IMG/VR virus record: IMGVR_UViG_3300045581_000321
Coordinates: 1-35,425 of that record
Length of the DNA stretch: 35,425 nt
Strand: one strand, 5' to 3'
Origin: a virus
The position numbers and the translations under genes were made by a program. Below the pieces are notes generated by a model, which made no database searches, was not told where the DNA came from, and saw nothing but the letters and a program-made list of their open reading frames with translations. Each line of letters begins with the position of its first letter. Within the stretch, counting starts at the first letter, position 1. Below, one piece after another: positions 4,998 through 20,278 of this stretch.

Positions 4998-4999
4998 CT

Positions 5000-5022
5000 T
5001 TGACACGCCGTCTTAAAACATG
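5000..5022 (+). promoter_or_regulatory. TTGACA start-proximal element 1
   Basis: TTGACA at 5000-5005 begins exactly 20 nt before the ATG at 5020, with TA at positions 9-10 after the box. No Shine-Dalgarno sequence is seen. The same arrangement precedes four other virion starts, and a 22-nt version a fifth. Confidence 0.5.
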
Positions 5023-5316
5023 GGTGATGTAGACAGCGTATCAAAACTATGGGCAAGGCAGGCGATGAAGAACGCTCGGTTCCTGAACCTATTGAAAACC
5101 CGATATGATGCGCTTTTGATCCAGAGCATCTCGGAAGGTGGACTCGACAAGGTGACGAGCGCAACCAAGAACGGGATCTCGATGGGCAAGCAGGTCGGCC
5201 TGTCTGTGCCGGATGTCATGGAAGCCATGGAAAAAGCACTGGCGTATGTTGAGCTGGGGCAGATCCCTCAGACCACCAGAACGCTTGGGCGCTTTACCTA
5301 CGGACGCTGGTTTTGA
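5020..5316 (+). CDS. small head protein in the gpW position (putative head-tail connector)
   Basis: A 98-residue, mostly helical protein between terminase and portal, the position taken by gpW in lambda-like phages. gpW-like proteins close the portal vertex after packaging. The sequence (WARQAMKNARFLNLLKTRYD, then LSVPDVMEAMEKALAYVEL) fits a small helical connector, but I see no diagnostic gpW signature, so the role rests mainly on position. The start is the ATG 20 nt after a TTGACA element. Its TGA stop lies inside the TTGACA of the next gene. Confidence 0.6.
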   Translation: MGDVDSVSKLWARQAMKNARFLNLLKTRYDALLIQSISEGGLDKVTSATKNGISMGKQVGLSVPDVMEAMEKALAYVELGQIPQTTRTLGRFTYGRWF

Positions 5317-5335
5317 CACATTCGCCTAATTGATG
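5313..5335 (+). promoter_or_regulatory. TTGACA start-proximal element 2
   Basis: TTGACA at 5313-5318 begins exactly 20 nt before the portal ATG at 5333, with TA at positions 9-10 after the box. The box contains the stop codon of the previous gene, so any transcriptional role would have to act across the gene boundary. Confidence 0.5.
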
Positions 5336-6805
5336 GCTATTCTCGACTCATACGGCAACCCTATCCAATACAAGGCAGCTAGAGCGGCACAATATCGTGG
5401 GCATCGGCCATGGGAGCCAATCGAGCGCAAAGATATCTCTGATCTGATTCCGTCAAATGACCGGATCAATCTGATGAGTCAGGCACGGAGGATTTACATC
5501 AACTTCGGGCCGATCAAAAACGCCATCAATCAGCGTTCGATGTATTCAGTCGGACGGGCATTCAGTCCACAATTCAGGGGGAGAGATACCGAGTTCGGGA
5601 TCACAGCAATAGAGTGGCTGTCAAATATCTTCTACGCCATCGGAGACTCCAGAGGCGGGATGCACGATTTCAAGACGAACCTTTTCACATGGTCAACATC
5701 CTTGGACGTCGATGGTGAGATCTTCATCCTTCTGACAGAAACCAAGAATGGTTTCCCGATCTACCAAGGAATCCCATCACACCGGATCGCCAATCCAAAC
5801 GGAATGCAGGACGGCCCGATGCGTGGGGGTGAACTGATCGACGGCATTGTCTACCTTGCCAGCGGAACTCCGAAGGAATACGCATTTTTGGACAAAGAAG
5901 GGAATCTGTCTGAGTGGATTCCGGCACAGAACATGATCCATCTTTACGATCCTGAGTGGCAATATCAGGGCAGGGGAATCAGCGCATTGACGCCTTGCAT
6001 CAATGATTGCCGTGACATCATTCAGTCAACCGAGTGGGAGCGTCTGGCAATGATGCAGATGAGCAGCATCAGCCTGATCGAATACAACGAATCTGGTGGA
6101 TCTGATATCGACGATCCTAGGAATATGCTTCTCGGTGGTTGTGATTCTGCAACACCGGGTCTCGTTGTCGAGAGCATGGACGGCGGAACAGTCCGATATT
6201 TCAAATCGAACAGCGGAGGCAAGATTGAAACCTTGGTCAACAATCGACCAGGCAACCCATTCTTGGACTTCCATGATCGCCTTCTCAAGTCATCTTATGC
6301 TTCACTCAACTGGCCGTATGCTTTCTACAATGGACACGGAGCAGGTGGTGGAACCGCACAACGCACCGAGATTGCCATGGCGCAACGAGCCATCGAGGAC
6401 AGGCAGGATCTTCTTTTCTATGCAGCGAAACGCATTGTATCGTATGCAGTAGCCAAAGCCCAGAAGCGTGGTGATCTGCCACAATCTGAGGAATGGTACA
6501 AGTGGGAGTTCTCGACTCCACCGAAACTGACGATTGACGATGGTCGGGTCATGAAGGAGCTGGAATCAGCTTACAAGCTGGGTTTCAAATCAGCATCCGA
6601 CATCACCTCAGCCATGGGCAGACAATATGCCGATGTCGTCAGGCAGAAAGCAGAGGAGGCAGCCATTCGCCAAATTATCACCGCAGAGATCGAGGAGAAA
6701 TACGGGGTCAAGATTGATGCCCGTGAGATTGCCATGATGACGCCGAACGATCAGCCAGATCCAGACAACGCTCCGGTTCCTGAGCCAAACAGAAATGCAG
6801 AATAA
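5333..6805 (+). CDS. portal protein, lambda gpB family
   Basis: A 490-residue protein forming the dodecameric portal through which DNA enters and to which the tail attaches. Family features visible are the early LMSQARRIYINFGPIKNAIN segment, the YSVGRAFSP and DVDGEIFILL segments, PSHRI, the HLYDPEWQYQGRG loop, and the late region with a Gly-rich loop followed by TAQRTEIAMAQRAIEDRQ. Length is as expected. The ATG at 5333 is chosen over the TTG at 5330. The C-terminus is acidic and proline-rich. The protease/scaffold gene follows after three bases. Confidence 0.9.
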   Translation: MAILDSYGNPIQYKAARAAQYRGHRPWEPIERKDISDLIPSNDRINLMSQARRIYINFGPIKNAINQRSMYSVGRAFSPQFRGRDTEFGITAIEWLSNIFYAIGDSRGGMHDFKTNLFTWSTSLDVDGEIFILLTETKNGFPIYQGIPSHRIANPNGMQDGPMRGGELIDGIVYLASGTPKEYAFLDKEGNLSEWIPAQNMIHLYDPEWQYQGRGISALTPCINDCRDIIQSTEWERLAMMQMSSISLIEYNESGGSDIDDPRNMLLGGCDSATPGLVVESMDGGTVRYFKSNSGGKIETLVNNRPGNPFLDFHDRLLKSSYASLNWPYAFYNGHGAGGGTAQRTEIAMAQRAIEDRQDLLFYAAKRIVSYAVAKAQKRGDLPQSEEWYKWEFSTPPKLTIDDGRVMKELESAYKLGFKSASDITSAMGRQYADVVRQKAEEAAIRQIITAEIEEKYGVKIDAREIAMMTPNDQPDPDNAPVPEPNRNAE

Positions 6806-6808
6806 GCC

Positions 6809-8185
6809 ATGGCGATTGATCTCAAACCAACCGAAGCGATGGCGGAGGAAGCAGAGCGTGGTCTTGCATGGCGTGATGAGTTCAACCGAGGAGGCACGGA
6901 AGTTGGAGTGGCAAGAGCTAGGGACATCAGCAACCGCAGAAACCTATCTACAGACACCATCCGCAGAATGGTCAGCTATTTCGCAAGGCATGAGGTGGAC
7001 AAGGAAGGAGAGGGCTTCTCACCGGGGGAGGAAGGATACCCATCAGCCGGGAGAATTGCTTGGGCATTATGGGGCGGGGATGCTGGACAATCATGGGCAA
7101 ATGAAAAGAACCGACAAATTGACACCGAACAAGAAAGTAAGATGGAGATTCTAATCAACAACAAAGTAGGCAAGATCAAACTAAATGATGCCGTCACGCC
7201 ATGGAGCGCAGATGACCTGATCAGCGAGATCGAAAAGCAATACGGAAACAAAGCCGTGGTCGAAAACATGGTGGTCGGAGGATTCCAATGTTCATCCGAT
7301 GATGCTCTTGAAACCATTGAGATTGAGATCAACTCCCCAGGCGGAAGCGTTCTAGACGGGTATCGAATCTACAATGCTCTGATGCAAATGCGCTCACGGG
7401 GTGTCGAGGTGGTGGCAACTGTCAACACGCTGGCAGCTTCCATGGGTAGCGTCATCCTGATGGCAGCCGACAAGGTAAAGATCGTCGAGGGTGGACGCAT
7501 CATGATTCACGAAGCATCTCAGACTGTATCTGGTGACAGTGAAGATCACGCCAGAGCAGCAAAGAATCTTGAGGAAATCTCAGAGGAAATCTCGATCATC
7601 TACGCCAACCGGACTGGTGCAAAACCAGAGGAAATGCGTGAGCTGATGAAGAAGGAAACTTGGATGGGAGCGAAAGAAGCAGTTGATCGCAAGTTTGCTG
7701 ACGAGATCGTGAAATTTGACACCGGAGTAAAAAGCATGAGCATACTTGCTAAACTATTCCCGAACAACGATCAGGTCGCACAAATCGAAGCAGCCATCCA
7801 AGAGAACGAGTCGATCCGTGCAGAACTGGTTTCCGCTCAAGATCAAATTAAAGAACTGCAATCGCAGATCGAAGACAAGATCCAAGTCCAATCTGAGCTG
7901 GTAGAGGCAAAAGCCAAAGCATCTGAGTTTGAGGCAAAAATCGTTGAGCAGTCCGAGAAGATCGAATCTCTTGAAAAAGAGCTGACCGCACTCGACGAAA
8001 AAGCAGGTATCAAGGCAGCCGAACTTCTGGCAGCCACTGGTCATTCCGCTCCTGTTGATCTCAACAACGAAGCTGGTGAAAGCCGTTCACCACTTGAAAT
8101 TTTTGAATCTCTGAAAGGTGCAGAAGCCACCGCTTTCTACAAAGCCAACCGCAAAGCGATCCTTGCAGAGCAAGCCAAAAAATAA
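6809..8185 (+). CDS. ClpP-like capsid maturation protease with N-terminal accessory domain and C-terminal scaffold
   Basis: A 458-residue three-part protein. Residues 1-108 hold a separate domain (TIRRMVSYFARHEVDK, then SAGRIAWALWGGDAG) found at the N-terminus of some phage head proteins. Residues about 112-305 are an S14/S49-type serine protease: NSPGGSVLDGYRIYNAL forms the oxyanion loop, the serine lies in AASMGS near residue 211, and the histidine in MIHEAS near 233. Residues 310-458 are a long coiled coil, suited to a scaffold that is digested during maturation. Internal starts at 7142 (protease) and 7736 (scaffold) are possible; a TTGACA box lies 23 and 20 nt before them. Confidence 0.85.
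   Translation: MAIDLKPTEAMAEEAERGLAWRDEFNRGGTEVGVARARDISNRRNLSTDTIRRMVSYFARHEVDKEGEGFSPGEEGYPSAGRIAWALWGGDAGQSWANEKNRQIDTEQESKMEILINNKVGKIKLNDAVTPWSADDLISEIEKQYGNKAVVENMVVGGFQCSSDDALETIEIEINSPGGSVLDGYRIYNALMQMRSRGVEVVATVNTLAASMGSVILMAADKVKIVEGGRIMIHEASQTVSGDSEDHARAAKNLEEISEEISIIYANRTGAKPEEMRELMKKETWMGAKEAVDRKFADEIVKFDTGVKSMSILAKLFPNNDQVAQIEAAIQENESIRAELVSAQDQIKELQSQIEDKIQVQSELVEAKAKASEFEAKIVEQSEKIESLEKELTALDEKAGIKAAELLAATGHSAPVDLNNEAGESRSPLEIFESLKGAEATAFYKANRKAILAEQAKK
7716..7738 (+). promoter_or_regulatory. TTGACA start-proximal element 3 (inside the protease gene)
   Basis: TTGACA at 7716-7721 begins exactly 20 nt before an internal in-frame ATG at 7736. GGAG at 7724-7727 lies 8 nt before that ATG. 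The TA at positions 9-10, present in the other elements, is absent here (TA falls at 7-8). Confidence 0.4.
7736..8185 (+). CDS. candidate nested scaffold protein (internal start within the protease gene)
   Basis: An in-frame internal start would make a 149-residue protein beginning MSILAKLFPNNDQ and consisting of the coiled-coil scaffold region only. In lambda, the scaffold Nu3 is made in the same way from inside the C protease gene. Support here is a GGAG ribosome-binding sequence 8 nt before the ATG, a TTGACA element at the 20-nt spacing seen before other virion genes, and the position of the start just after the protease domain. No independent stop or frame change proves it, so it remains a prediction. 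Confidence 0.5.
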   Translation: MSILAKLFPNNDQVAQIEAAIQENESIRAELVSAQDQIKELQSQIEDKIQVQSELVEAKAKASEFEAKIVEQSEKIESLEKELTALDEKAGIKAAELLAATGHSAPVDLNNEAGESRSPLEIFESLKGAEATAFYKANRKAILAEQAKK

Positions 8186-8204
8186 TCTCAATTAATCCAC
8201 TAAT

Positions 8205-9113
8205 ATGTCCACTACATTCAACGACAAAATCTACACTCAGGAAGTCCTGAACGCATTCACGGCTGGTCTTGCACCGCTTCGTGCTTTCACTCGTTCCTTT
8301 TCTCCAGAAGCCCGGCGCAAAGGTGATGCCATCATCATCCCTCGTGTTGACGCTCTGTCCACCACGACCTTCGCCTATGCCAACAACAGTGGCTATCCTT
8401 ACGAAACCGAAGGTGGCGTTGTTTCCGCAATCACGCTGAACCTCGATCAACACCAGATCGTTGGCGTTGACATCACTGACGTTCAGTTCGCCAATTCCGG
8501 CAGCGCTGACATCAGCATCTTCGCTCAACAACAAGGTCGCGCTCTTGCCCGTAAGTGCATCGAGAACGTTTTCGGACTTCTCACCATTGCAAACTTCGGT
8601 GCAGCAGCAGCCAGCCCAGTTTCGATCGCCAACACCGGACTTGCCCAACTTCGTGCAGCCCGTAAGACCCTCATGGATCGCAAGGTTAACATGGACATGG
8701 TTTCGCTTATCTCCAACTCCGAGCTTTACAGCTCGCTCCTTGGCGACAGCAACATCACTCAGGCTTTCCAATATGGTGGTTCTGAGGCAGTTCGTGAAGC
8801 CCGTATCCCTCGTCTCTACGGCATGGACGTCTACGAAACGAATGCTCTGCCACTTGGCGGCACTCTCTCGCTGGTCGGTTTCCTTGCCCACCCAGATGCA
8901 ATCGCAATCGCAGTTCGCAACCTGCAACCGCAAGATGGCGGAGACAGCTACCTTGCTGTTGAAACTGTCACCGATGCAGAAACGGGTCTTGGTTTCACCT
9001 ATCGCCGTCATTTCAACCCAGGCAAAGGCCGCCATTTCGCAAGCGTTGAATGCTTGTTCGGCATGACGACCGCCTTGACCTTGGGCATCGGACTTCTCCG
9101 TAAGGCAGACTAA
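8205..9113 (+). CDS. major capsid (coat) protein
   Basis: A 302-residue protein placed right after the protease/scaffold gene and before a strong terminator, as expected for the coat protein. It begins FNDKIYTQEVLNAFTAGLAP, has an internal SPEARRKGDAIIIPRVD segment like that of P22/HK97-fold coat proteins, and ends with a conserved-looking FASVECLFGMTTALTLGIG. Codon use is unlike the neighbours: C at third positions and Arg CGT/CGC dominate, consistent with very high expression. A 358-codon antisense frame is a by-product of this bias. No separate decoration protein is seen nearby. Confidence 0.85.
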   Translation: MSTTFNDKIYTQEVLNAFTAGLAPLRAFTRSFSPEARRKGDAIIIPRVDALSTTTFAYANNSGYPYETEGGVVSAITLNLDQHQIVGVDITDVQFANSGSADISIFAQQQGRALARKCIENVFGLLTIANFGAAAASPVSIANTGLAQLRAARKTLMDRKVNMDMVSLISNSELYSSLLGDSNITQAFQYGGSEAVREARIPRLYGMDVYETNALPLGGTLSLVGFLAHPDAIAIAVRNLQPQDGGDSYLAVETVTDAETGLGFTYRRHFNPGKGRHFASVECLFGMTTALTLGIGLLRKAD

Positions 9114-9135
9114 TCTCGGTTTGTGTTTCATGGTC

Positions 9136-9168
9136 AAAAGCCGTCCTCAGAAATGGGGGCGGCTTTTT
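9136..9168 (+). terminator. rho-independent terminator after the coat gene
   Basis: AAAAGCCGTCC (9136-9146) pairs with GGGCGGCTTTT downstream, with one G-T pair and an 8- to 9-nt loop, followed by T's at 9164-9168. It lies 22 bp after the coat stop and inside the long upstream extension of the next frame, which argues that the next gene starts at 9210 and not 9123. Confidence 0.8.
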
Positions 9169-9209
9169 GCTTGCCAAAATTCAATTTTTGGTTCACAAGT
9201 CTCTCACAA

Positions 9210-11426
9210 ATGAATGCAGAAAAAATAACGCTTTCCGTTATTACCGGAAATTGCGAAAAAGACATCGAGCGATTCCTGAACGTGTTTCAACCACACTTCG
9301 ATGAGGTTGTCATGGTTCGTGCAATCGGGAATCAAGATCCAGACAACACCTTGAGCATTGCAGAAAGCCGAGGTTGTATTGTCGGAGAATACTTCAATAG
9401 CCCAGATGCCATCGAAGGATGCACACCTCCATCTACATGGAAGCACGTTGACAACTTCGCCGCTGCTCGCAATGTATCGGCAAAGCTGGCTACCGGAGAC
9501 TGGATCATGTGGGCAGACATGGATGACACCGCAGAAGGTCTTGAGAACCTGCGTGAGATCATCGCCAAGCTGCCAGAGGGATGCAACATCCTGCGTTGTC
9601 CCTATGTTGTCAGCGATCAGGGAGTGATTGCAAACTATCGGGAGCGAGTCTGGAGAAATACAGGGTCGATGGAATGGAAGAACGCATTGCATGAGAATCT
9701 TGTCGATACATCTGGCAATGACGCACCACACAGCCAAACAGATCGTATCAAGATCATTCACGCACCCAGACAAGATCGGGACTGCTCAAAAGATCGCAAT
9801 CTGAACATCCTTGAAAGCATTCCAGAAGATCAGAGGACACACGCTCATACGTTCTATTTGATGACGGAATATGCCCGCAGAAACGATCCAAGGGCTGTTG
9901 AGCTTGCAGATGATTTCCTGAAGCATCCAGAAGGAGGACTGCCGGAAAGATTTGAGACATTCATGACCATGGCAGCCATGTCCGAGGATTTCGAGACAAA
10001 GGCGCAGATCTACACGCAGGCATTCGCAGAAGATCCAAGCCGGGCAGAACCGCTTTACGAGCTGGCTGCATTGTCCTTGTCCTGCGATCAACCCAAACGA
10101 GCGTTGGACTTTGCGAGACTGATGATGAGCTGCAAATGGCCTGACGATCCATGCTGGAACCACCGGAAGATGTTCTATGGGTTTTTCAGGGAGGATCTGT
10201 TCCTGCAATGCCTGAGATCGGCAGGATATGTCCTTGAATCAGACACCCGCAGGGAGAATATGAATAAGAGGGCAGGATTGCCCGTAATTTCGCTTTTACA
10301 CGCTACGAGGGGCAGAGCCTCACAAGCGATCAGAACACGCTCAGAATGGCTCAGGAACGCAGACAACCCAGAAGCCATTGAACACATCTTTGCCGTGGAT
10401 CTCGACGACGAATACGCCGAGGTATTCCAGAGGTTCAAGACTGTGTTCATGCAGTCGGGTCAGGGTGGATGTGTGGCAGCCTGGAACAGCGCAGCGATCC
10501 ACTCCAAGGGCGATATCCTCGTGCAGCTCAGTGATGACTGGAAGCCATTCAAAGGATGGGACACAGAGATTTTAAGGTGCATCGGAGACACCCAAAAAGA
10601 ATCTGTCTTGGCAATCTCAGATGGTCATCGAAACGACAACCTTCTCTGCATGGCGATCCTGACCAGAGCGAGATACAAAGCGCAAGGATACCTGTTCCAT
10701 CCAGAGTTTTTCTCGATGTTCTCTGACAACTGGTTTTCATTTAACGCATTTAAGGATGGCGTTGTCATTGATGCTCGTGATCGGATCACATTTGAACATC
10801 TGCACCCTGCATTCGGCAAAGCTGAAATGGATGAGAGTTATTCCAGAAGCAACAGCGAATACAATTACCAGACCGGAGAAGGCATTTTCCGGCGTCTGAT
10901 GCTGGGGATCAAGATGTCCAGCGACATCGAAGGCTGGTTTGACTTCAGGGATGTCTATGATTTCGTTGCAAAAATGCTTCCCAAAGATGGACAATTCGTC
11001 GAGGTCGGAGCGTGGAAGGGCAAAAGCGCAATTTACCTGCGAGATCGTCTCGACGATATCCGCAAGCCAGTGGTCTTGTGGGTGGTTGATACGTTCAAAG
11101 GCGATGACGACACCGGAAAAGTCGATGTATTGCCAGAGTTCAAGGAAAACCGAGGTGAGCGGGACATCAACATCTTTGAGAGCGAGAGCGCACCAGCAGC
11201 CGAGGGCTTCGATGATGACACTCTGGATGGGGTATTCATTGATGCAGCCCACGATTACGAGAACGCTCTGGCAGACATCAAGGCATGGCAACCAAAGGTC
11301 AAAAAAGGCGGCTTCTTCGGTGGTCATGATGCTGATTCCGAGGGAGTTAGAAAGGCACTGAAGAAAGCAGGCATCAATTATGTGGTCATCGGCAGATGTT
11401 GGATCAAAACAGACAAAACAAAATGA
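9210..11426 (+). CDS. three-domain glycosyltransferase-glycosyltransferase-methyltransferase
   Basis: A 738-residue protein. Residues 1-230 are a GT2-type (GT-A fold) glycosyltransferase with the metal-binding motif MWADMDD at about 100-106 and a GNCEKDIERFL start. Residues 230-345 look like TPR/helical repeats (AEPLYELAALSLSCDQPKRAL). Residues 355-575 are a second GT-A-like domain (VISLLHATRGR, AVDLDDEY, QLSDDWKP). Residues about 577-738 are a class I SAM-dependent methyltransferase (FVEVGAWKGKSAIYL as the SAM loop, then VFIDAAHDYENALADIK). It lies between coat and head-tail genes, so virion protein glycosylation with methylated sugar is a plausible role. The start is the first ATG after the terminator. 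Confidence 0.8.
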   Translation: MNAEKITLSVITGNCEKDIERFLNVFQPHFDEVVMVRAIGNQDPDNTLSIAESRGCIVGEYFNSPDAIEGCTPPSTWKHVDNFAAARNVSAKLATGDWIMWADMDDTAEGLENLREIIAKLPEGCNILRCPYVVSDQGVIANYRERVWRNTGSMEWKNALHENLVDTSGNDAPHSQTDRIKIIHAPRQDRDCSKDRNLNILESIPEDQRTHAHTFYLMTEYARRNDPRAVELADDFLKHPEGGLPERFETFMTMAAMSEDFETKAQIYTQAFAEDPSRAEPLYELAALSLSCDQPKRALDFARLMMSCKWPDDPCWNHRKMFYGFFREDLFLQCLRSAGYVLESDTRRENMNKRAGLPVISLLHATRGRASQAIRTRSEWLRNADNPEAIEHIFAVDLDDEYAEVFQRFKTVFMQSGQGGCVAAWNSAAIHSKGDILVQLSDDWKPFKGWDTEILRCIGDTQKESVLAISDGHRNDNLLCMAILTRARYKAQGYLFHPEFFSMFSDNWFSFNAFKDGVVIDARDRITFEHLHPAFGKAEMDESYSRSNSEYNYQTGEGIFRRLMLGIKMSSDIEGWFDFRDVYDFVAKMLPKDGQFVEVGAWKGKSAIYLRDRLDDIRKPVVLWVVDTFKGDDDTGKVDVLPEFKENRGERDINIFESESAPAAEGFDDDTLDGVFIDAAHDYENALADIKAWQPKVKKGGFFGGHDADSEGVRKALKKAGINYVVIGRCWIKTDKTK

Positions 11427-11605
11427 GCAATCAAGCAGGAAAAGGAGACAGCCCAAGGCCCGTGGACATGAAAACTTACGGGGACAATTACGAATCAATC
11501 TTTAGAAAGAACAAAAATGCAACCAATACTATCCATTCTGACACCATCAGTCCCAAGCCGCAATGTAAGCTCGCTGCAAGAAAAGATCGAAAAGCAGATC
11601 GGTGA
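11423..11605 (+). CDS. small conserved protein (GKGDSPRPVD type)
   Basis: A 60-residue protein coupled by ATGA to the glycosyltransferase. Its first 30 residues (GKGDSPRPVDMKTYGDNYESIF) match a small motif found as short ORFs in many phages; the function is unknown to me. The rest overlaps the next gene by 89 nt in another frame and is lysine-rich, so the C-terminal half may be shaped by that overlap. Confidence 0.55.
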   Translation: MSNQAGKGDSPRPVDMKTYGDNYESIFRKNKNATNTIHSDTISPKPQCKLAARKDRKADR

Positions 11606-12077
11606 TTTGCCAGTCGAGCATCTGGTATTCTGCGACAACAAAAAGCGGAGCATCGGGGAGAAAAGGCAGTCATTGGTCAATATCGCCAATGGCAAATACA
11701 TTGCCTTCGTGGATGACGATGATGATATCTGCGAGGGATACGTTGCAGAGATCCTGAAGGCAGCCCAGAGCAACCCAGATGTCATCACCTTCAAGCAGCA
11801 GGCATTCTACAACGAGCATGAGTCAGAGATCGTCTTTGGGATTAACCATCAGGACGAGCCATTCAACCCGGGTGGTGTCACCTATCGAGCGCCATGGCAC
11901 ATTTGTGCTTGGAAGCGTGAGAAGGTCACAGATTGCCAGTTCGCCTTTACGAACTACGGGGAGGATAAGATCTGGGCATTGCAAGCCCGTAAGAAAATCA
12001 AGACTGGGCTACATATTGACAAGGTTTTGCAGATTTATCGGCACTCATCTTTGACAACGGAGGCGCCAGAATCATAA
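11517..12077 (+). CDS. GT2-type glycosyltransferase
   Basis: A 186-residue single-domain GT-A glycosyltransferase. PILSILTPSVPSR is the N-terminal nucleotide-sugar strand, GEKRQSLVNIANGKYIAFVDDDDD (residues 48-70) holds the metal-binding aspartates, and GEDKIWALQA near the C-terminus supplies the usual acidic catalytic loop. It is short for the family but has both key regions. It starts inside the previous small gene and is followed by a TTGACA element. With the large glycosyltransferase upstream it forms a two-enzyme sugar module inside the virion operon. Confidence 0.8.
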   Translation: MQPILSILTPSVPSRNVSSLQEKIEKQIGDLPVEHLVFCDNKKRSIGEKRQSLVNIANGKYIAFVDDDDDICEGYVAEILKAAQSNPDVITFKQQAFYNEHESEIVFGINHQDEPFNPGGVTYRAPWHICAWKREKVTDCQFAFTNYGEDKIWALQARKKIKTGLHIDKVLQIYRHSSLTTEAPES

Positions 12078-12079
12078 GA

Positions 12080-12102
12080 TTGACAAAAAGCCCTATTGCA
12101 TG
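12080..12102 (+). promoter_or_regulatory. TTGACA start-proximal element 4
   Basis: TTGACA at 12080-12085 begins exactly 20 nt before the ATG at 12100, with TA at positions 9-10 after the box. It lies just 3 nt after the glycosyltransferase stop. Confidence 0.5.
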
Positions 12103-12411
12103 ACAGGAATTGACAGCTTTATCCTTAGCTCACTTGACGAGGTTGACTCGATCCTCGGAACTGTGACAATGACTGTTGTCGGGCAAACCTTCTCGGTGGT
12201 CATTGATGACGTCAATAAGTCCACCAGCGGGGATGATGTCGGTCTGACCGCTGAATATGATGTCATTGCCTGCGCTCAGCCAGCCGATGTCAGCAACCCA
12301 AGACTGCTGGTCAACAAACGATGCACCTTGGACGGCAACGAATACCGCATCAACCAAGTCAGGGTCGGAACAGTGGCAATTCACTTCATTCTCACAGACA
12401 TCAACAAGTAA
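12100..12411 (+). CDS. putative head-tail joining / head completion protein
   Basis: A 103-residue protein rich in beta strands (VTMTVVGQTFSVVIDD, RLLVNKRCTLDGNEYRINQVRVG). This size and fold type, with the location before a terminator-like and a tail-tube protein, suits a head-tail joining protein of the lambda gpFII kind. There is no unique motif. Stop and next start overlap as TAATG. Confidence 0.5.
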   Translation: MTGIDSFILSSLDEVDSILGTVTMTVVGQTFSVVIDDVNKSTSGDDVGLTAEYDVIACAQPADVSNPRLLVNKRCTLDGNEYRINQVRVGTVAIHFILTDINK

Positions 12412-12836
12412 TGAACATCCAACGCAGACTCAAATCCATCCTGATCGAGCATCTTTCGAGATACAAGCCCGCCGAGGATATCGAAGTAATTGACGCCAAA
12501 AGACTGGATCTTGCCACCTTGCCGACCATTGCCGTCGAGGTTACAGACGAAAAAGCCCACTCTCAGGCACTCTGGAGCGTTATTGTCTGCCAGGTATCGG
12601 TTCTTTACCGAGTCCATGCAGGGGATATCGAGCAGCCCGATCTGGATTACAACATGGACGTCATCGAGCAGGCTTTGCAAGATCCCAATGAATTGGTGGT
12701 TCTGGGAGACGAAAACAGCCTTGTGATCTTCAACTGGCTGTATCAGGGGTCGGTTCAGGAATGGAACGATTCGATGGTGGACACAGTTTTCACCGCTGAA
12801 TGTATCGTGACCAGAAAGCCGATCAATCAGAACTGA
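12411..12836 (+). CDS. putative tail terminator / minor tail protein
   Basis: A 141-residue protein with the start fixed by a TAATG overlap; the frame is open further upstream (to 12321) but that part is read out of frame inside the previous gene. It begins MNIQRRLKSILIEHL and has an alternating beta/helix pattern (ALWSVIVCQVSVLYRVH, then NMDVIEQALQDPNELVVLGD) resembling tail-terminator (gpU-like) proteins, which cap the tail tube and meet the head. Position just before the tail tube supports this. No decisive motif. Confidence 0.5.
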   Translation: MNIQRRLKSILIEHLSRYKPAEDIEVIDAKRLDLATLPTIAVEVTDEKAHSQALWSVIVCQVSVLYRVHAGDIEQPDLDYNMDVIEQALQDPNELVVLGDENSLVIFNWLYQGSVQEWNDSMVDTVFTAECIVTRKPINQN

Positions 12837-12839
12837 AAT

Positions 12840-12862
12840 TTGACACGCCATGATACTTCATG
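12840..12862 (+). promoter_or_regulatory. TTGACA start-proximal element 5
   Basis: TTGACA at 12840-12845 begins exactly 20 nt before the tail-tube ATG at 12860, with TA at positions 9-10 after the box. The box and following CGCC are identical to element 1 over ten bases (TTGACACGCC). Confidence 0.5.
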
Positions 12863-13231
12863 GCAGCAACAGTCTACACCGCAGCATCGGCATCCGATCT
12901 TGTTTTCGCTCTGACGAACGAAACTGGTATCATCTTGACCAACTATTCACGCAACGTTTCCCCGGTTAAAACCGAAGTCCGAGACGCTGAAAACGAGGTT
13001 GTCGCAGTAGCATACAGCGGCATCACGGCAGCAATTACCCTTGATGGCTTCATCAACGGAACGACCGAGTTCGAGGTCGCAAACCTTTTGACCTTGGCCA
13101 ACGACACCGCCTCTTATGGTCTGTCCGGTGGCACAGTGATCGTCGATTCCGTCAACGAGTCCCACGCTCAAGGCGAGTTCAAGAAAGTCTCAGTTTCCTG
13201 CACACAATACGCAGAAACGATGACTGCCTAA
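12860..13231 (+). CDS. putative major tail (tube) protein
   Basis: A 123-residue, beta-rich protein (SDLVFALTNETGIILTNYSR, then ITLDGFINGTTEFEVANLL and GEFKKVSVSCTQYAETM). Its C-rich, high-expression codon use is like the coat gene, it stands alone between two non-coding gaps, and it lies upstream of the chaperone frameshift pair; all three fit a tail tube protein. It is short for the family, and I see no Ig-like extension. No sequence signature is decisive. Confidence 0.6.
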   Translation: MAATVYTAASASDLVFALTNETGIILTNYSRNVSPVKTEVRDAENEVVAVAYSGITAAITLDGFINGTTEFEVANLLTLANDTASYGLSGGTVIVDSVNESHAQGEFKKVSVSCTQYAETMTA

Positions 13232-13249
13232 GTTTGAAAAACAACCCAT

Positions 13250-13271
13250 GCCGCCTGGGTAAATTGGCGGC
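13250..13271 (+). terminator. hairpin after the tail-tube gene (possible terminator or attenuator)
   Basis: GCCGCC at 13250-13255 pairs with GGCGGC at 13266-13271 across a 10-nt loop. No T-run follows, so it may attenuate or stabilise the tube mRNA 3' end and not be a full terminator. It ends 9 nt before the next ATG. Confidence 0.45.
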
Positions 13272-13280
13272 AAATACATT

Positions 13281-13670
13281 ATGAAAAGAGAGATGTTCCA
13301 CACGACGAATCTCAAGGCTGCGTCTGCATTGGTAACGCTTGGCTTTGAGTTATTGAACCCGCCAGTCACCCGCACAGTTCGGGATGATGGCGTTGAATCG
13401 ACAGTGTTCTGGTTTGAGCCTATTAACAAAGAAGGCAAGAAAGCCATTGAGGTCTATCGTGACATGACCAAGGGTAGCGAGAAGCTGCGAGCTAGCGATC
13501 CAGAGAACCCGATCAATTACATGAGGGAGGTTCTGAGCAATAGGGATGAGCTGATCAGCCTGATACGCAATGTGCCACGCCATGTCATCATCAACCGGAA
13601 TGGTCGATCAATTGCCATTCGTGAGGACGCAACAAAAGAACAAAAAGATCAATTCAAACCATACCTGTAA
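13281..13670 (+). CDS. hypothetical tail-region protein (DUF5659-like start)
   Basis: A 129-residue protein. The N-terminus (MFHTTNLKAASALVTLGFEL) resembles DUF5659, a phage family where a short segment of 'tsdl..A.~L...G' precedes a beta/helix region; that is pattern recall only. The middle is charged (YRDMTKGSEKLRASDPENP). It lies between tail tube and chaperones, where such small proteins of unknown role are common. Confidence 0.5.
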   Translation: MKREMFHTTNLKAASALVTLGFELLNPPVTRTVRDDGVESTVFWFEPINKEGKKAIEVYRDMTKGSEKLRASDPENPINYMREVLSNRDELISLIRNVPRHVIINRNGRSIAIREDATKEQKDQFKPYL

Positions 13671-13675
13671 AACAT

Positions 13676-14080
13676 ATGAAAAAGAAAGAAAACATCGAAC
13701 TTCTGACCGATGAAGAAGTATTGACCAGAGGAGCCACAAAGGAAAACGAGAAGATCGGAAAGCTGAATCTTCGACCGATTACCATCCGATCCTTGTCCCA
13801 GATGAAACGCAATGGCGTTTTGGACAATGAGAATCAGGACGTATTCCAGAAAACCGCAGCTTTTGGATTTATCCACAGCGCACCTAAGGATGTGGTCAGC
13901 TCGGTGGTCAATGACAAGAAGGAGTTCTACGCAGTAATTGATGACTGGATGGATGAGAACTTTACGAACCACCTTGAGATGGAGCCATTGGCAGAAGCCA
14001 TGAACAAGGCTTTTGAGGAATACGCTGCTGCAATGTCCACCGGATCGGTTCCTTACAAGGGCAACGGGTCAAAAAACTAG
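13676..14080 (+). CDS. tail assembly chaperone (short, G-like form)
   Basis: A 134-residue acidic/helical protein. Between tail tube and tape measure, tailed phages encode a chaperone in two forms that bind the tape measure during tail assembly. The gene ends GNGSKN and its last codons read tcA AAA AAC TAG, which contains the ideal -1 slippery heptamer. Most ribosomes would stop at TAG (14078-14080) and make this short form. Residues 50-110 (ITIRSLSQMKR, KKEFYAVIDDWMDENF) look helical. A product of this size and site is typical. Confidence 0.75.
   Translation: MKKKENIELLTDEEVLTRGATKENEKIGKLNLRPITIRSLSQMKRNGVLDNENQDVFQKTAAFGFIHSAPKDVVSSVVNDKKEFYAVIDDWMDENFTNHLEMEPLAEAMNKAFEEYAAAMSTGSVPYKGNGSKN
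14071..14077 (+). promoter_or_regulatory. -1 programmed frameshift site A AAA AAC
   Basis: The heptamer AAAAAAC is in the correct phase for simultaneous -1 slippage (zero-frame codons TCA AAA AAC TAG). It lies directly before the stop. Slippage continues in the frame CTA GCA TCT that is open to 14307. A small stem (CCCA 14086-14089, TGGG 14092-14095) lies 8 nt downstream but is weak. Confidence 0.8.
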
Positions 14081-14307
14081 CATCTCCCATCTGGGTGGCT
14101 GCCTATGTTCATCAACTCGCAGCAGCAACTGGATGGGGATACAATGAGATCATGGATGAAGTCCCATTGTCATTGGGATTGCAAATCATTGATGCGCAAT
14201 GCCTTAAAGAAGGTGTGATGAGAGAGCGCATTGATATCAGTCAACAGACCGAAAGCGCAGAGGAGATAATTGACAAAGCATTCAAAAGCATAGGGCATGG
14301 CGACTAG
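14077..14307 (+). CDS. tail assembly chaperone frameshift extension (T-like domain)
   Basis: The -1 frame from the slippery site adds 76 residues (LASPIWVAAYVHQLAAATGW at the start) to the 134-residue short form, giving a 210-residue GT-like fusion. The extension is helical, with PLSLGLQIIDAQCLKEG in the middle, as in T domains that contact the tail tube. An independent GTG start at 14095 exists but has no ribosome-binding site, so frameshifting is the better explanation. It overlaps the next gene by 11 nt. Confidence 0.7.
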   Translation, partial: LASPIWVAAYVHQLAAATGWGYNEIMDEVPLSLGLQIIDAQCLKEGVMRERIDISQQTESAEEIIDKAFKSIGHGD

Positions 14308-15115
14308 AATTCATACAGATATGAAGGGACTGAATGAGGTTCTGGGTAATTTCCAGAAATTCACTCAGACGACCATTCCTATGCTCGTGAGGAGACACGC
14401 CAGGCTTCTGGCTGTCGAGCTTGCCAACCGCACTCAGCCATTCTCGGTTGGATCAGCCAGTAGAAATGCCAAGCAGCTTGGCACAAACGCAGTCAACAAT
14501 GACTTGACCAAGGTTTTCAGGGCTAAGGAATCGCTGCAATGGGTCATCGACAAAACCCAGAACGAATCACTCAGGAAGAAACTTCAGAGCGCATTGAACA
14601 GCGGGAACAATCGCAAGATTGCTGAGATATTCAAGGCTGTCGGAATGATCAAGGACTATGAACTGATTGCCAAATCTGGACTTGCAGCAAAGCACAAAGC
14701 CCAGAGATCCAATCGAAGCGGCCGAGCATGGGAGAGCAAGCAATCCATGAACATTGCAATCAGTGGATTGCAGACCTACGCCAAAGAGATCCAGAAAAGA
14801 GTCGGACTCAGCAAATCCTCATGGGCTGAATGCGCTCGTAAGATTGGAGGCATCAAAGGCGATGGAGCAAGGGGAATCCCGGCATTTGCCAAATCAAAGA
14901 ATCACAAATCATCCGGCACGATCATTGATGGAATCAAGAAAAGGAATCCATTCATCACGATGGCGAGCAACATTCCTTGGGCATCTCGTATCCTGCCACA
15001 ATCAGAAATCATGGCAGCCCACAGCGTTGTCAGATCCAAGATGATCAAACAAGCCGACAAAATGACAAAAGCGGCAGCAAAGAACAATTTCAATCCACAA
15101 CCACCAGATGAGTAA
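14297..15115 (+). CDS. minor tail / virion morphogenesis protein
   Basis: A 272-residue, basic and helical protein between the chaperones and tape measure. It has the look of virion-morphogenesis or tail-completion proteins (MLVRRHARLLAVELANRTQP, ending KMIKQADKMTKAAAKN), which often start with a helical region that binds the tail. I see no definite family signature. It overlaps the chaperone frame by 11 nt and the tape measure by 8 nt. Confidence 0.5.
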   Translation: MATRIHTDMKGLNEVLGNFQKFTQTTIPMLVRRHARLLAVELANRTQPFSVGSASRNAKQLGTNAVNNDLTKVFRAKESLQWVIDKTQNESLRKKLQSALNSGNNRKIAEIFKAVGMIKDYELIAKSGLAAKHKAQRSNRSGRAWESKQSMNIAISGLQTYAKEIQKRVGLSKSSWAECARKIGGIKGDGARGIPAFAKSKNHKSSGTIIDGIKKRNPFITMASNIPWASRILPQSEIMAAHSVVRSKMIKQADKMTKAAAKNNFNPQPPDE

Positions 15116-17093
15116 AGTAGTCACCACATTTGCAGCAGACGATCAAGGCATGGTCGCTACAATCAAAAAGATTGAGAGCGAAAGCAAGGGCATGGCAGAA
15201 ACCATGCAAAAGACTGAAAGCCAATTCAAAGTCAGTTTTGGATCAATGGCTGTTGCTGGTGCTGGTTTTGCAGTTGGGATGGCAGCAGTCAAAGGTGTAT
15301 TTGCTTTGGTAAGTAAAACAGTTGATCAATTTGGAGCTGCATTGGATCTTGGAGGAACATTAAGTGATTTATCAGCAAGAACAGGAGAGACATCTGGGAA
15401 TCTTTTGCTTTTACAGCGAGCATTTGAAAACTCTGGTGCTGGAGCTGATGCTGTTGGGCCTACAATCAACAGATTGCAGAAATTCATGGTTGATGCTGCA
15501 ACTGGAACTCAGAAAAACATCGAAGTCTTGGATTATCTTGGCTACACTTATGATCAGCTAAAAGGTAAAACTCCAACCGAGCAAATGGAGATGTTTGCCA
15601 AGAGAATCAATGCAATTGAAGATCCTGCAGTAAAATCAGCAGTTGCAATAAGGATTTTTGGAAAATCTGGAGGAGAAATGCTACCATTACTCTCAAGTTT
15701 TGGTCAGGAATTAAAGAATGCAAAAGAAGAACTTGGATCAATGCCAAAAATATTCAATGAAAATTCTAGTGCATTTGATACAATATCAGACAAAATAAAG
15801 AACATCAAAGGAAAATTCATGGAGTTTGCAGCTGGAATCTTAGATAAGATAAATCCAGCTTTAGAGTTGCTTGTAACAGCTTTAGCTAGAATTGACGCAG
15901 CCAAACTTGGACAAGACTTAGCACAGGGAATTATTGGTGCTGGTCAAGCAATGGAAGGATTCAAAGCATCTTTACAAGCCATGAATGCTGGAGAGTTTGG
16001 TTTAGCATGGAAAATCGCATGGAAATCTATTGCCCTACAAGCCATGGAAACCATTAACCAGATTTATCGTGGATTTTTCTCAACAGTTGAAGCAACAAAA
16101 TTTCTCTTTACCAATTTATTTGATGAAAATGGTGCAATTATGAAAACTATTGTTGCGGTATTTAATATTATTGGAATCAAAATCTCAATGATGATTCGCT
16201 CTTATCTGGCAGATGCTTTAATTGATGTGCCAGTAATCGGAGAGGCATTGAATAAAAACTTAGAGGTTGATTTGAGGTGGATGGAATCAAAGATCAAATA
16301 CAATCAAATGATTGTAAGGAGAGAATTTGGTAAAACAGGTGAACAAATTTCCAAAACTTACCAAGAATCTAGTGATGTATTTAACTCAACTTGGGCAAAG
16401 ACAGCACCAATTATTGATACAACAAATGAAAGTCTTGAGCTTACCGAATTAAAAATTAAAGCCGCAACTCTTGAGGCTGAAAGACTTAAAAAAGCAACCG
16501 AAGAAACACAAAATGAAGCCAAAAAACTTGGAACAAGTCTTGAAGATAGCGCTCTTTTAAGAAGTATTCCAAAAGCTGCATTGCAAATGCGAAAAATGGG
16601 AGATGATATCAAAAAAGTTAAATTTGAACTTACAGAGCTTGAAAAATTAAAAGTAGAATTCATTGAGAAAAAATCTGGAAGAAGCATTGAGCCTCTTAAG
16701 AAACAATTTCAACAAGAATTGGAACAAGAAAGATTTACAAAAGCACAAAGCACATTGAGACGCATCGAGAACAAACAACTTGAAGATGAGTTGCGTGTAA
16801 ATCAAAAAGGCGAGCGGGATCGTCGAAACATTGCAGACATCGCCAGAAAAGAAGGAATCAAAACCTTTGGTAAAACCAATGAAGAAATCAGAAAAGAAAT
16901 TCTTCAGAAGCGCAGAGATGAAGCATTGAAAAAAGGTGGTGCAAAAGTTGATGTCTTAGGTGGCCCACTAGATGAAAAAGGAGCAGCACCAGCCAGAAAA
17001 CCAGAAGAAATGCTTTTAGATGTGGTCAAAGCAATCAAGGCGCTGGTTGAGAAGATCGAACCTAAACTGCCAACACACGCTTTAGCATTATGA
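15108..17093 (+). CDS. tail tape measure protein
   Basis: A 661-residue protein that sets tail length. It has an N-terminal helical region, a hydrophobic stretch at about residues 45-70 (AVAGAGFAVGMAAVKGVFAL), and a typical ...LSDLSARTGETSGNLLLLQ... segment followed by long alanine-, lysine- and glutamate-rich helices to about residue 620. At roughly 0.15 nm per residue it implies a tail near 100 nm. The DNA from about 15,250 to 16,750 is clearly A+T-richer than the two ends of the gene and than neighbouring genes, suggesting that the middle was acquired by recombination. The next gene overlaps by 4 nt. Confidence 0.88.
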   Translation: MSKVVTTFAADDQGMVATIKKIESESKGMAETMQKTESQFKVSFGSMAVAGAGFAVGMAAVKGVFALVSKTVDQFGAALDLGGTLSDLSARTGETSGNLLLLQRAFENSGAGADAVGPTINRLQKFMVDAATGTQKNIEVLDYLGYTYDQLKGKTPTEQMEMFAKRINAIEDPAVKSAVAIRIFGKSGGEMLPLLSSFGQELKNAKEELGSMPKIFNENSSAFDTISDKIKNIKGKFMEFAAGILDKINPALELLVTALARIDAAKLGQDLAQGIIGAGQAMEGFKASLQAMNAGEFGLAWKIAWKSIALQAMETINQIYRGFFSTVEATKFLFTNLFDENGAIMKTIVAVFNIIGIKISMMIRSYLADALIDVPVIGEALNKNLEVDLRWMESKIKYNQMIVRREFGKTGEQISKTYQESSDVFNSTWAKTAPIIDTTNESLELTELKIKAATLEAERLKKATEETQNEAKKLGTSLEDSALLRSIPKAALQMRKMGDDIKKVKFELTELEKLKVEFIEKKSGRSIEPLKKQFQQELEQERFTKAQSTLRRIENKQLEDELRVNQKGERDRRNIADIARKEGIKTFGKTNEEIRKEILQKRRDEALKKGGAKVDVLGGPLDEKGAAPARKPEEMLLDVVKAIKALVEKIEPKLPTHALAL

Positions 17094-17791
17094 CGACGAT
17101 TTACGAGAAAACAACAGGTGGTCTGATCAAGACCGGAGATAGGAGTATTTCAGCGTTCCCAAGTGGATTGATCCGAGTGGATCAGCTCTACATTGGCAAA
17201 TCGAGCGAGGAAACAACCCATCGGCAGGTCTTGGCTTATGGGCTGGAGATGCCCAATCAACCCGATGTTCCAGTCATTGATGATCTGATCATCTTCCCAG
17301 AGGTTCAGGAATCTCGCAATGGTTCTGGGTTCACGCAATATCAATGCAGCGCATACGGCAGGACAACCGAGGAGTATCGGGAGCTTTCCAGATCCAGAAA
17401 CTCATTCCTGTTGCCCACAAACGCAGCTAATGTCACACTCAAGATCGTTGCAGACAATCTTCAGGGGACAATCGTCAAGCGCAACGGAGAGGTCATCGAG
17501 CAGGAGGATATCGTTTTCAGCGATGATTTTCTGAAGCTGAGATCGGTCAATTATTACGAATACCCGTTGATTCCGAACATCAGCGTCACCGAGATCAGTG
17601 TGCTGGAAAGAAACCCGACGATTCGTGGATACCTTGCAATCTTCGACACGCCAGATCAGGCACTTGCCGAGCAGATCTTTTACGTTGCAGATCCTTTTAT
17701 CACCATCACAGCACAACGTAACTTCGGTGAGTTCGTGGAATATGAGTTCAATGCTTCCAGGGCAGGACTGGAAAACCTAGAAACTGAATGA
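17090..17791 (+). CDS. minor tail protein
   Basis: A 233-residue protein directly after the tape measure, where distal-tail and tail-tip genes lie. Predicted beta-strands dominate (VNYYEYPLIPNISVTEISVL, then DPFITITAQRNFGEFVEYEF). It couples by ATGA on both sides. I do not recognise a specific family; distal tail or tail-tip protein is inferred from order only. Confidence 0.55.
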   Translation: MTTIYEKTTGGLIKTGDRSISAFPSGLIRVDQLYIGKSSEETTHRQVLAYGLEMPNQPDVPVIDDLIIFPEVQESRNGSGFTQYQCSAYGRTTEEYRELSRSRNSFLLPTNAANVTLKIVADNLQGTIVKRNGEVIEQEDIVFSDDFLKLRSVNYYEYPLIPNISVTEISVLERNPTIRGYLAIFDTPDQALAEQIFYVADPFITITAQRNFGEFVEYEFNASRAGLENLETE

Positions 17792-18375
17792 ACCTACCAA
17801 TAGATTTCGAGCAAAAGGTCAAGCTGCCACCAGCGATCAATGGCAGATCCTACCCTTATCAGATTTCTGCTCGTCATTTGATGCAGAATTTCAGGTATGC
17901 AGCCTTGCAGGTGGATCAATCTGAGGTTGGAGGATTACAGCTTAGGGAAACATCTGCACCAGATGGCACGAGGACAGTGAGTCTTGCAGGTCAGGCTGCC
18001 GGAGGAGTCGGTGGATCTCTGCACCCATTCAAGGTTACCTATGCAGATCTGCAATACACAGTGGCAACCGGAGAATGTGCTGGTCAGACCATCAGCGAGC
18101 AGACATTTGCCGAAGCCAGCTTGTCTTACATCTTTGCCAAGATCGAGCGGAATACGTCGAGCAGGGTCGTCATCGGGGCAACGTTGGAGATTAACACAAG
18201 CATTCCGGCTTCGACCGAGGAGTTTCAATACGTTGCCATCGCCTATGTAAATGGAGATGAAATCATCCAGCTAAGATTTGAAGATATCCGAGTGACAGAG
18301 ATCCTGATCTCTGATGCCGGGGAGCTTAAACTGGTTTCAGTCTTTGATACCACGAATTCCTATGCTTTACCCTGA
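17788..18375 (+). CDS. minor tail protein
   Basis: A 195-residue beta-rich protein (AALQVDQSEVGGLQLRET, then SRVVIGATLEINTSIPA). It is coupled by ATGA to the previous gene and TGATG to the next, forming a three-gene tail-tip set. A glycine-rich loop (AAGGVGGSLHPFKVTY) lies near residue 70-85. No catalytic motif is visible. Function inferred from context. Confidence 0.5.
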   Translation: MNLPIDFEQKVKLPPAINGRSYPYQISARHLMQNFRYAALQVDQSEVGGLQLRETSAPDGTRTVSLAGQAAGGVGGSLHPFKVTYADLQYTVATGECAGQTISEQTFAEASLSYIFAKIERNTSSRVVIGATLEINTSIPASTEEFQYVAIAYVNGDEIIQLRFEDIRVTEILISDAGELKLVSVFDTTNSYALP

Positions 18376-19292
18376 TGGCAGACAGAATCACAACACCGAA
18401 CCTCAGATTCCGATTCGTTGAAAAGACCGCTGGGCAAGTTGGCAGCCTGACAGCATACCCGGTTCAGGTCACATTGGACGAAGCAGCAGAGGTGTTTCAT
18501 CGAGTCAGGAATGCCAAGTGGTTAAGTGGAACTGTGGATATCCAATACGGGACAGCTCCATTTGACGATCATTACGAGATCTTCATTCCGTCCATTACCC
18601 AGCCTGCGCCATTGATTCAGGAGGTCGTCAATCTTGTAACACCACACGCATCGAAGCGGGGATACGCCTTCAAAAAGAAAGGTGTTGCAGATGAATTCGG
18701 GAATCTGCTCTATGAGCAAACGATGGTGGCTGGGGCTGATGACTATTACGATGCCGACTACCAATCAGGAGCCTATGATCCAGATGACGTCTGGAGAGAC
18801 GGCAAATCAAGGGAGGCATCAATTCACGCCTCGGATCTGGTCGAATGGGACAATCTTGATGGTGGGGTCACAACTGGTTTCTCATTTTTATCAGTCGCAG
18901 AAGGTGGAGGGACTGATCCAGCATCGTCAGGAGTTTATGCTTTTGACTCTAGGTTCAACTTTATTGGCAACGAAAACACCTTTGCATATGTGATTTTCAG
19001 TGGAGAGATCGCCTGGGTGGATGTCAACGGATCAGGAAACCCGATTGATCCACTCAATGAGCTTTATCTAGGCGTCGAGTTTAAGGCCGTATCAACGCCA
19101 ATGCTGGATGTCACAAGCATATCAACAAAAGCCAGCGGAGATCCAAACGCAGTCTCAGCTTCGATCAAATTCATTCTCAGGCTTTCAAATTCTGATCTGG
19201 TATGCGACCTTGAAATCTCTCCATTTATCTTTATTCTAGGGACTTATGACAGCCACACAGGGACTGATTTCATCTTAGAAGCCGACGAATAG
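18375..19292 (+). CDS. minor tail protein (tail tip or baseplate)
   Basis: A 305-residue protein starting with the TGATG overlap. It carries several beta-rich segments and Asp/Tyr-rich loops (DDYYDADYQSGAYDPDDVW near residues 124-143) that could bind metal. The C-terminal part resembles a virion structural domain with an alternating strand pattern (SASIKFILRLSNSDLVCDLEI). No family could be assigned. The 89-bp gap downstream encodes only a 16-residue frame (19300-19350) that I would not call a gene. Confidence 0.5.
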   Translation: MADRITTPNLRFRFVEKTAGQVGSLTAYPVQVTLDEAAEVFHRVRNAKWLSGTVDIQYGTAPFDDHYEIFIPSITQPAPLIQEVVNLVTPHASKRGYAFKKKGVADEFGNLLYEQTMVAGADDYYDADYQSGAYDPDDVWRDGKSREASIHASDLVEWDNLDGGVTTGFSFLSVAEGGGTDPASSGVYAFDSRFNFIGNENTFAYVIFSGEIAWVDVNGSGNPIDPLNELYLGVEFKAVSTPMLDVTSISTKASGDPNAVSASIKFILRLSNSDLVCDLEISPFIFILGTYDSHTGTDFILEADE

Positions 19293-19359
19293 TTTCCATA
19301 TGCCAAGGACAACCCGTCCACAGCAGTCTGGGACACCGCCACAGGGCTGAAACTCTAGT

Positions 19360-19384
19360 TTGACAAGCCAGCTTAGACATTATG
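19360..19384 (+). promoter_or_regulatory. TTGACA start-proximal element 6 (22-nt spacing)
   Basis: TTGACA at 19360-19365 begins 22 nt before the ATG at 19382, two longer than the others. TA still falls at positions 9-10 after the box, so the box-to-TA distance is kept and only TA-to-ATG changes. Confidence 0.4.
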
Positions 19385-20278
19385 GACATTTCTCAAACTC
19401 GCGCATTTTCAGGACTTCGGATGGTTGCAACTCCGACAGCCAGTCTTGTTTCAAACGACGTAACCATCGGGGTTCCAAGCACGAACGTTGCAATCGCTGA
19501 TGTGGACACTGGATATGCAGTCCGTGGTTTGATCGTTGGATCTTCATCCGACCTTGTTCTCGATCTCGCAGACAATGACAGCACTGGCACGACCGCATGG
19601 ACGGCAGGTGTAGCCCAAGTCGAAACCGCTACCGCAGCAGGAACGATCACCGCATCTGGAAACGCCACTGTGGTTGTGACCGCAGCCGGAATGACTGGCA
19701 GCCCGAAAACCATCAGTGTGGCAGTTCTCAACGGAGACACCGCAGCAGTCTGGGCTGGCAAAGTTCGCACCGCTCTGGCCGCAGATTCCGCAGTTTCCGC
19801 TCTTTTCGCTGTCAGTGGCACAAGCACAGCTATTATCCTGACTCGTAAGGCGACCGCCACCTATGCAGTAGGAAGCGTTTCTGTGCCACTCTACGCAGCC
19901 AATGACTCGACCCTGAACATCTCGCTTGATAACGGCACTTGCACCGGGATCACGACCGCAGCCAGCTCTGCAAACACCACCTCCGGCACTTTGACCGCTG
20001 GTGTCTACCTGCTCGACGGGGATGGCAAAGACTTTGAGGGAGTTACCCTCTCAGCCATCGCTTCCAACCGCCTTGGTGGGGTTCTGATCAGCAACCAATC
20101 GACCTCTGCTGGTGACATCCTTGTTTCCACAGTCTCGACGATGACTGAATTGCCAGTTCAGCCAGATGGCAGCCTGCAAGTAACGGCGAAAAATTGCGAT
20201 CAGCCACTTGAGGTTTTGACCATCTCGGCAGCCAGTTCCGCAGTTGTTTCAATCGTCGCAGTCGGCGCCACCGCTTAA
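19382..20278 (+). CDS. abundant virion structural protein with Ser/Thr/Ala-rich beta domains
   Basis: A 298-residue protein of low complexity, rich in A, T, S, G and V. A segment near residues 80-160 (GTITASGNATVVVTAAGMTG, then LTRKATATY) is a beta-sandwich motif I have seen repeated in tail and decoration proteins. Codon use is C-rich, like the coat and tube genes, so it is probably made in large amounts. Decoration protein, tail-associated adhesion protein or fibre base are the options; I cannot choose. Confidence 0.55.
   Translation: MDISQTRAFSGLRMVATPTASLVSNDVTIGVPSTNVAIADVDTGYAVRGLIVGSSSDLVLDLADNDSTGTTAWTAGVAQVETATAAGTITASGNATVVVTAAGMTGSPKTISVAVLNGDTAAVWAGKVRTALAADSAVSALFAVSGTSTAIILTRKATATYAVGSVSVPLYAANDSTLNISLDNGTCTGITTAASSANTTSGTLTAGVYLLDGDGKDFEGVTLSAIASNRLGGVLISNQSTSAGDILVSTVSTMTELPVQPDGSLQVTAKNCDQPLEVLTISAASSAVVSIVAVGATA

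Follow-up and report, generated by a model that had tools for sequence, protein, structure and literature searches.

We propose that a short DNA signal, TTTGACA, is probably a late promoter element of phages, placing the 5′ end of the RNA a set distance downstream, based on a 35,425-base virus record (the window, by which we mean this whole stretch of DNA) with a lambda-like head module and on the relatives of this phage. In the proposed mechanism the element would lie at about −21 to −15 and set the 5′ end at the purine at box+20, positions being counted throughout from the first T of TTGACA. Where the start codon (ATG, or GTG in some phages) coincides with that purine the mRNA would be leaderless, and where it lies further downstream the mRNA would carry a G-free leader of 12–37 nt, the break in base composition at box+20 corresponding to the transcription start. 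Initiation would be performed by the host RNA polymerase and may be directed by a conserved helix-turn-helix (HTH) protein. The relevant features of the window are as follows.

1726–2199, plus strand: gene for the HTH protein, 157 aa, candidate box-reading factor
3252–4997: terminase large subunit
4999–5005, plus strand: box TTTGACA before the connector gene; predicted RNA 5′ end 5020 (A of ATG)
5020–5316, plus strand: connector (gpW-position) gene, 98 aa, an ORF named by its place between terminase and portal
5312–5318, plus strand: box TTTGACA before the portal gene, overlapping the connector stop codon TGA; predicted 5′ end 5333
5333–6805, plus strand: portal gene (PF05136, 8.6e-23; phrog_21, 1.6e-29)
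6809–8185, plus strand: ClpP-type protease (PF00574, 1.6e-28)
7715–7721, plus strand: box TTTGACA before the nested scaffold, inside the protease ORF; predicted 5′ end 7736
7736–8185, plus strand: nested scaffold frame, an ORF in frame with the protease
8175–8204, plus strand: leader of the major capsid gene, 30 nt, G-free and without a box (contrast case)
8205–9113: major head (capsid) protein gene
12080–12085, plus strand: box TTGACA before the FII-like head-tail joining gene; predicted 5′ end 12100
12100–12411, plus strand: FII-like gene, 103 aa, an ORF named by position and conserved in relatives
12839–12845, plus strand: box TTTGACA before the tail-tube gene; predicted 5′ end 12860; in relatives the spacing is 19–21 nt, or 32–40 nt with a leader
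12860–13231, plus strand: tail-tube gene, 123 aa, named by position, no family match
19359–19365, plus strand: box TTTGACA before the structural gene, ATG 22 nt away; predicted 5′ end 19379–19382
19382–20278, plus strand: structural gene, 298 aa, an ORF with homologues in L014, L031, L072 and L136

PHROG and Pfam searches with the connector gene returned no match. Elsewhere in the window, the same 60-base sequence occurs at 400–470 and 34997–35067, ahead of similar genes at 460 and 35057, and the record therefore probably wraps past the end of a genome that is circular or terminally repeated. The protein at 26191–26991 contains internal repeats of the type LSSLTTLPEGTKFENQGHVY, and TATAAT has two copies on the plus strand and one on the minus, compared with ∼10 per strand in mononucleotide shuffles.

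The first-pass annotation had described TTGACA at a fixed distance before six virion gene starts. All six boxes exist, five at 20 nt and one at 22 nt. The positions listed there (5000, 5313, 7716, 12080, 12840 and 19360) are the first letters of the boxes; the ATGs of the boxed genes are at 5020, 5333, 7736, 12100 and 12860 (20 nt) and at 19382 (22 nt). The extended core of the element is T-TTGACA, and a visible Shine-Dalgarno (SD) sequence is found at few starts. The TA reported 9–10 nt after the box is indeed present in five of the six, the exception being the box at 7716, where it occupies positions 7–8. The assertion that no chance copy of TTGACA is followed by an ATG at this distance (20 nt) proved slightly wrong, as one intragenic copy (25119, minus strand) does and another (20828) has one at 21 nt. 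The hexamer is not over-represented in the window (23 sites vs 27.5 expected), and it lies 19–22 nt upstream of 6 of 52 gene starts, all six within the 21 late genes. Because the list of 52 starts was made by hand from ORFs and homology, the finding that none of 20,000 rotations (or random placements) of the boxes reaches 6/52 is only indicative, and it is the relatives that carry the argument. The link between box and start in the window is confirmed as non-random, and the observation is real.

Since TTGACA is the sigma-70 −35 consensus and the hexamer is exact at all six sites, the boxes might be ordinary −35 elements, or their placement might be due to chance. We give this reading next to no credence: the best −10 at a spacer of 15–19 has 2–4 mismatches and would fall inside the genes, and the rotations speak against chance, which the deep conservation excludes. 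A promoter with its −10 inside the gene was likewise rejected, as there is no conserved −10 in the window or its relatives. The Bacteroidota promoter TAnnTTTG occurs 6 times in the window against 4.7 expected, and it too was discarded. An upstream stop codon as the cause of the box does not hold either, as the scaffold site has none and other boxes lie after the stop. Nor is the box a host-wide signal, as TTTGACA-N13-ATG occurs 0–10 times per strand in 96 Verrucomicrobiota genomes, with no clear excess.

Among 80 portal relatives of the window phage, the distance from box to ATG peaks at 20 nt (70 distinct contexts, against a background of ∼2–4 and 1 on the opposite strand). The connector start carries the box in 63/63 distinct contexts and the nested scaffold start carries the exact TTGACA in 49/49, though it lies inside the protease frame. 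The earlier proposal had hinged on related phages keeping the box, and it stands up to this comparison, the box being nearly universal at these two genes. For the FII-like gene the box is exact in 22 of 32 contexts and within one mismatch in all 32, while the portal start has it in 36 of 60 distinct contexts, the box having been replaced at some portal starts. The tail-tube start has the box at 18–24 nt in 12 of 27 contexts; tube starts that seem to be without one have it at 32–40 nt, with a leader, and there the upstream gene mostly stops at a TGA within the box, so that the sequence after the box is non-coding. No box is found at the terminase, protease and major capsid starts in the window's phage group. 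The box recurs in phages whose portal is ∼22% identical to that of the window, and again at 20 nt in a distant group (L096, L126 and L142) whose tube proteins are 26–31% identical. The TA at +9/+10 is confined to part of the family, being frequent at distances of 19 and 20 nt, weak at 21 and 22 nt, and absent from the second phage group. Intergenic copies of TTTGAC[A/T] in 26 long relatives are nearly all linked to a start, with an ATG at 18–23 nt in 85 contexts, a start at 32–40 nt in ∼17 and a GTG at 19 nt in four; the exceptions include TTGACT copies 42–49 nt upstream of the gene whose place corresponds to 15108. Late-gene starts 24–31 nt from a box are very few. The contig L090 (JAKMCX010000140.1), from a Flavobacteriales metagenome-assembled genome (MAG), encodes a portal 66% identical to that of the window and has three start-linked boxes.

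Some homologous genes (capsid, tube and structural) have the box 32–57 nt before the start, among them capsid and tube starts at 34–57 nt in phages found via the HTH gene. We selected 31 distinct leadered late starts of this kind (32–57 nt) by their first protein residues, with composition not used in the choice. Box+20 is a purine (A or G) at 31/31 of them, a count that overstates the independent evidence because of the common descent of these sites. The share of G is 95 of 403 bases from box+6 to box+18 vs 9 of 562 from position 21 to the ATG, and the boundary at box+20 stays fixed while the leader varies from 12 to 37 nt. From the purine and the G-free stretch that begins there, we infer an RNA 5′ end at box+20. 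Starts with a box at 18–23 nt have 25–28% G and 46–59% GC at −13 to −1, compared with 1–18% G and 32–43% GC at unboxed starts of the same genomes, and portal homologues without a box have 11% G and 37% GC just upstream of the start. Most simply read, this means that the mRNA would not include the 13 nt upstream of a boxed start, which is support rather than proof, as a translation element might itself relax the need for a leader at boxed starts. The scarcity of starts at 24–31 nt is expected if the mRNA needs either no leader or one long enough for the ribosome. Composition and spacing thus point to a leaderless mRNA with its 5′ end at the start codon. Of the two alternatives in the first-pass annotation, the late promoter with start-codon transcripts is consequently the one we favor over the translation signal, as a purine and a G-free leader follow box+20 when the box is far from the start and boxed starts do not have the leader signature of other starts.

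The promoter reading is supported by conservation, fixed spacing, linkage to starts, the purine and the composition break. Against it, the −10 region (box+6 to box+12) is GC-rich, which is odd for DNA opening by any known sigma factor, and unboxed capsid leaders are also G-free, so that a G-free leader could be a feature of translation alone. In the window (8175–8204) and its relatives, the major capsid leaders have no box and contain no G over as much as 50 nt; starts that lack an SD sequence may generally need such a leader.

The long-spacer tube sites contain inverted repeats that straddle box+20 and are centered near box+22 (Fisher P ∼7e-6 vs shuffles), an excess that holds when the two halves are shuffled separately. 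In several relatives, an intrinsic terminator lies ahead of the FII gene, its T-tract extending into the box. Judged from sequence, such hairpins and terminators would insulate the gene from upstream transcription. Before gene 13281 (window 13240–13280) the relatives have a GC-rich, terminator-like hairpin of changing sequence, without a T-tract.

The hairpins also bear on a reading in which UUUGACA acts in the mRNA from ∼14 nt before the start codon by recruiting a phage protein or the ribosome, with hairpins looped out at longer spacings. We consider this unlikely, even though almost all intergenic boxes are linked to a start codon, few starts have a visible SD sequence, and subtracting the long-spacer tube hairpins, which exceed shuffles, leaves ∼13–20 nt. 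Looping out cannot be the rule: while significant as a set, the hairpins are essentially missing from one of the 14 long-spacer tube sites, weak at several and absent at L056 and L201, and longer leaders exist, those of 25–37 nt beginning at box+20 with a purine and having no consistent hairpin. Moreover, TTGACA shows no complementarity to the CCTCCTT tail at the 16S rRNA 3′ end, the sampled Verrucomicrobia 16S rRNA has no complement to the box (TGTCAAA and GTCAAA are absent from five 16S genes), and the accessibility of the box is no higher than that with shuffled flanks (0.495 vs 0.499). The GC-rich composition of boxed starts, where other starts are G-poor, likewise argues against it.

Less probable still is RNA processing, in which an endonuclease would recognize UUUGACA in long late transcripts and cut ∼14 nt downstream, yielding leaderless or short-leader mRNAs. 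This would explain how the 5′ end can be fixed although no −10 is present and the spacer is GC-rich, and also the purine and G-free leader after box+20. However, the strong intrinsic terminator that ends within the box in several relatives would leave most upstream RNA without a box, and the protease message would itself be cleaved at its internal box.

If TTTGACA is a late promoter element, the HTH protein at 1726–2199 is the candidate factor directing it. The protein has sub-threshold similarity to HTH_3 and Sigma70_r4, its structure model has a pLDDT of 76.5, and structure searches against the PDB with either model gave no significant match. The gene is found in 129 related viral stretches, of which the best 80 were kept, and in 13/13 longer records searched, a figure that is not independent as most of these were retrieved via the HTH gene; a homologue was looked for in cultured phages and none was found. 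All 26 HTH-bearing contigs with a detected portal homologue (∼22% identity) have at least two start-linked boxes, mostly with a GTG at 19 nt, while Verrucomicrobia phage P8625 and its relatives have neither a peak at 20 nt nor an HTH homologue. The L096, L126 and L142 group has boxes, with no HTH homologue found in these partial contigs. Co-occurrence of gene and box, in most but not all box phages, is therefore strong but not perfect. A Sigma70_r2 domain gave no match in 13 records (the control was positive in 11 of 14 genomes), although a divergent sigma factor is possible, and in the search for a single-subunit polymerase (PF00940) the positive control matched nowhere. Repeated ATTGCAAAT-like motifs lie just upstream of the HTH homologues in L031, L036 and L049, perhaps as an autoregulatory site. 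The co-occurring HTH protein would also suit a box that serves as a binding site for a phage repressor or activator at late starts and does not set the 5′ end, but this leaves the purine and composition break at box+20 and the near-absence of spacings of 24–31 nt unexplained, and we regard it as very improbable.

A Verrucomicrobiota host is suggested by the 30% similarity of the window portal to that of P8625, by relatives among Verrucomicrobiota MAG contigs and by an HTH-bearing phage contig in a Verrucomicrobiota bin; the relative in a Flavobacteriales MAG (L090) is perhaps misbinned. As for proviruses of the family, bacterial genomes yielded just fragments and that one phage contig. The box phages, a large uncultured group, thus probably infect Verrucomicrobia.

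If the promoter reading is right, it provides a start-site-resolved promoter for a common, uncultured phage group, makes real start codons and 5′ ends predictable from sequence alone, and names a regulator without a described counterpart among the families searched. It would also raise the question of how RNA polymerase opens a promoter with a GC-rich −10 region, and in these phages one gene could be compared, as it occurs in nature, with and without a leader.

Among known systems, the start-associated sites (SAS) of mycobacteriophage cluster K likewise link a conserved phage sequence to start codons; they are located a few nt before the start and differ from the box in both sequence and position. 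P8625 (L089, NC_029047.1) and its relatives resemble the box phages in having TTGACA just before single late genes, among them the one ahead of the portal gene, with the start codon near the expected RNA start. Their box, however, lies 35–41 nt before the ATG with a plausible −10, an ordinary sigma-70 layout that speaks for the sigma-70 reading of the window. In P8625 the gp8, gp15, gp22 and gp31 starts are 36 nt after TTGACA; gp7 is annotated from 4705 (region 4637–4705), and an in-frame ATG at 4672, 35 nt after TTGACA, is probably its true start. P8625-type late starts (L089 5412–5448, 10736–10772 and 15558–15594; L244, L245 and L247) combine TTGACA with a palindrome, GTATCC-N7-GGATAC, and an ATG 36 nt on, and the P8625 relatives L248 and L251 keep −35/−10-like sequences without the palindrome.

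T4 late promoters (TATAAATA; gp55) offer a parallel in gene e, whose late start falls inside a hairpin, read-through RNA being silenced and hairpin-started RNA translated (PMC3014915), as may be the case at our tube starts; T4, however, uses an AT-rich −10-type element and the sigma factor gp55, whereas the box would lie at about −20 and only some sites have hairpins. The middle/late promoters of phiEco32 gp36 likewise have a single conserved element (tAATGTAtA, start 6–8 bp downstream; PMC8948821), serve late genes and redirect host RNA polymerase. That element is AT-rich and close to the start, whereas here 14 nt of GC-rich spacer precede the predicted 5′ end, and phiEco32 encodes a phage sigma factor, whereas no Sigma70_r2 domain was found in our 13 records. 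The late promoters of jumbo phage AR9, which encodes its own multisubunit polymerase, read AACA-(6N)-T[A/G], the last base being the start (PMC5312081). They too consist of one short upstream element whose distance to a purine +1 is fixed, at late genes and with no −35/−10 pair, and in line with this AR9/phiKZ-type arrangement the predicted start (box+20) is a purine at all 31 of our leadered, related sites; the AR9 element, however, is 7 nt from the start rather than 14 and its leaders are 26–491 nt long, not absent. With no −10, a distance from element to start unlike that of phiEco32 and AR9, and no sigma domain found, the element works like a phage-specific late promoter that is outside every class tested. 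It is conceivable, if doubtful, that it represents a new class, in which a small, non-sigma-like HTH protein and host RNA polymerase act at TTTGACA, at about −20 and with a GC-rich melting region, to produce gene-by-gene leaderless late mRNAs, including those with GTG starts.
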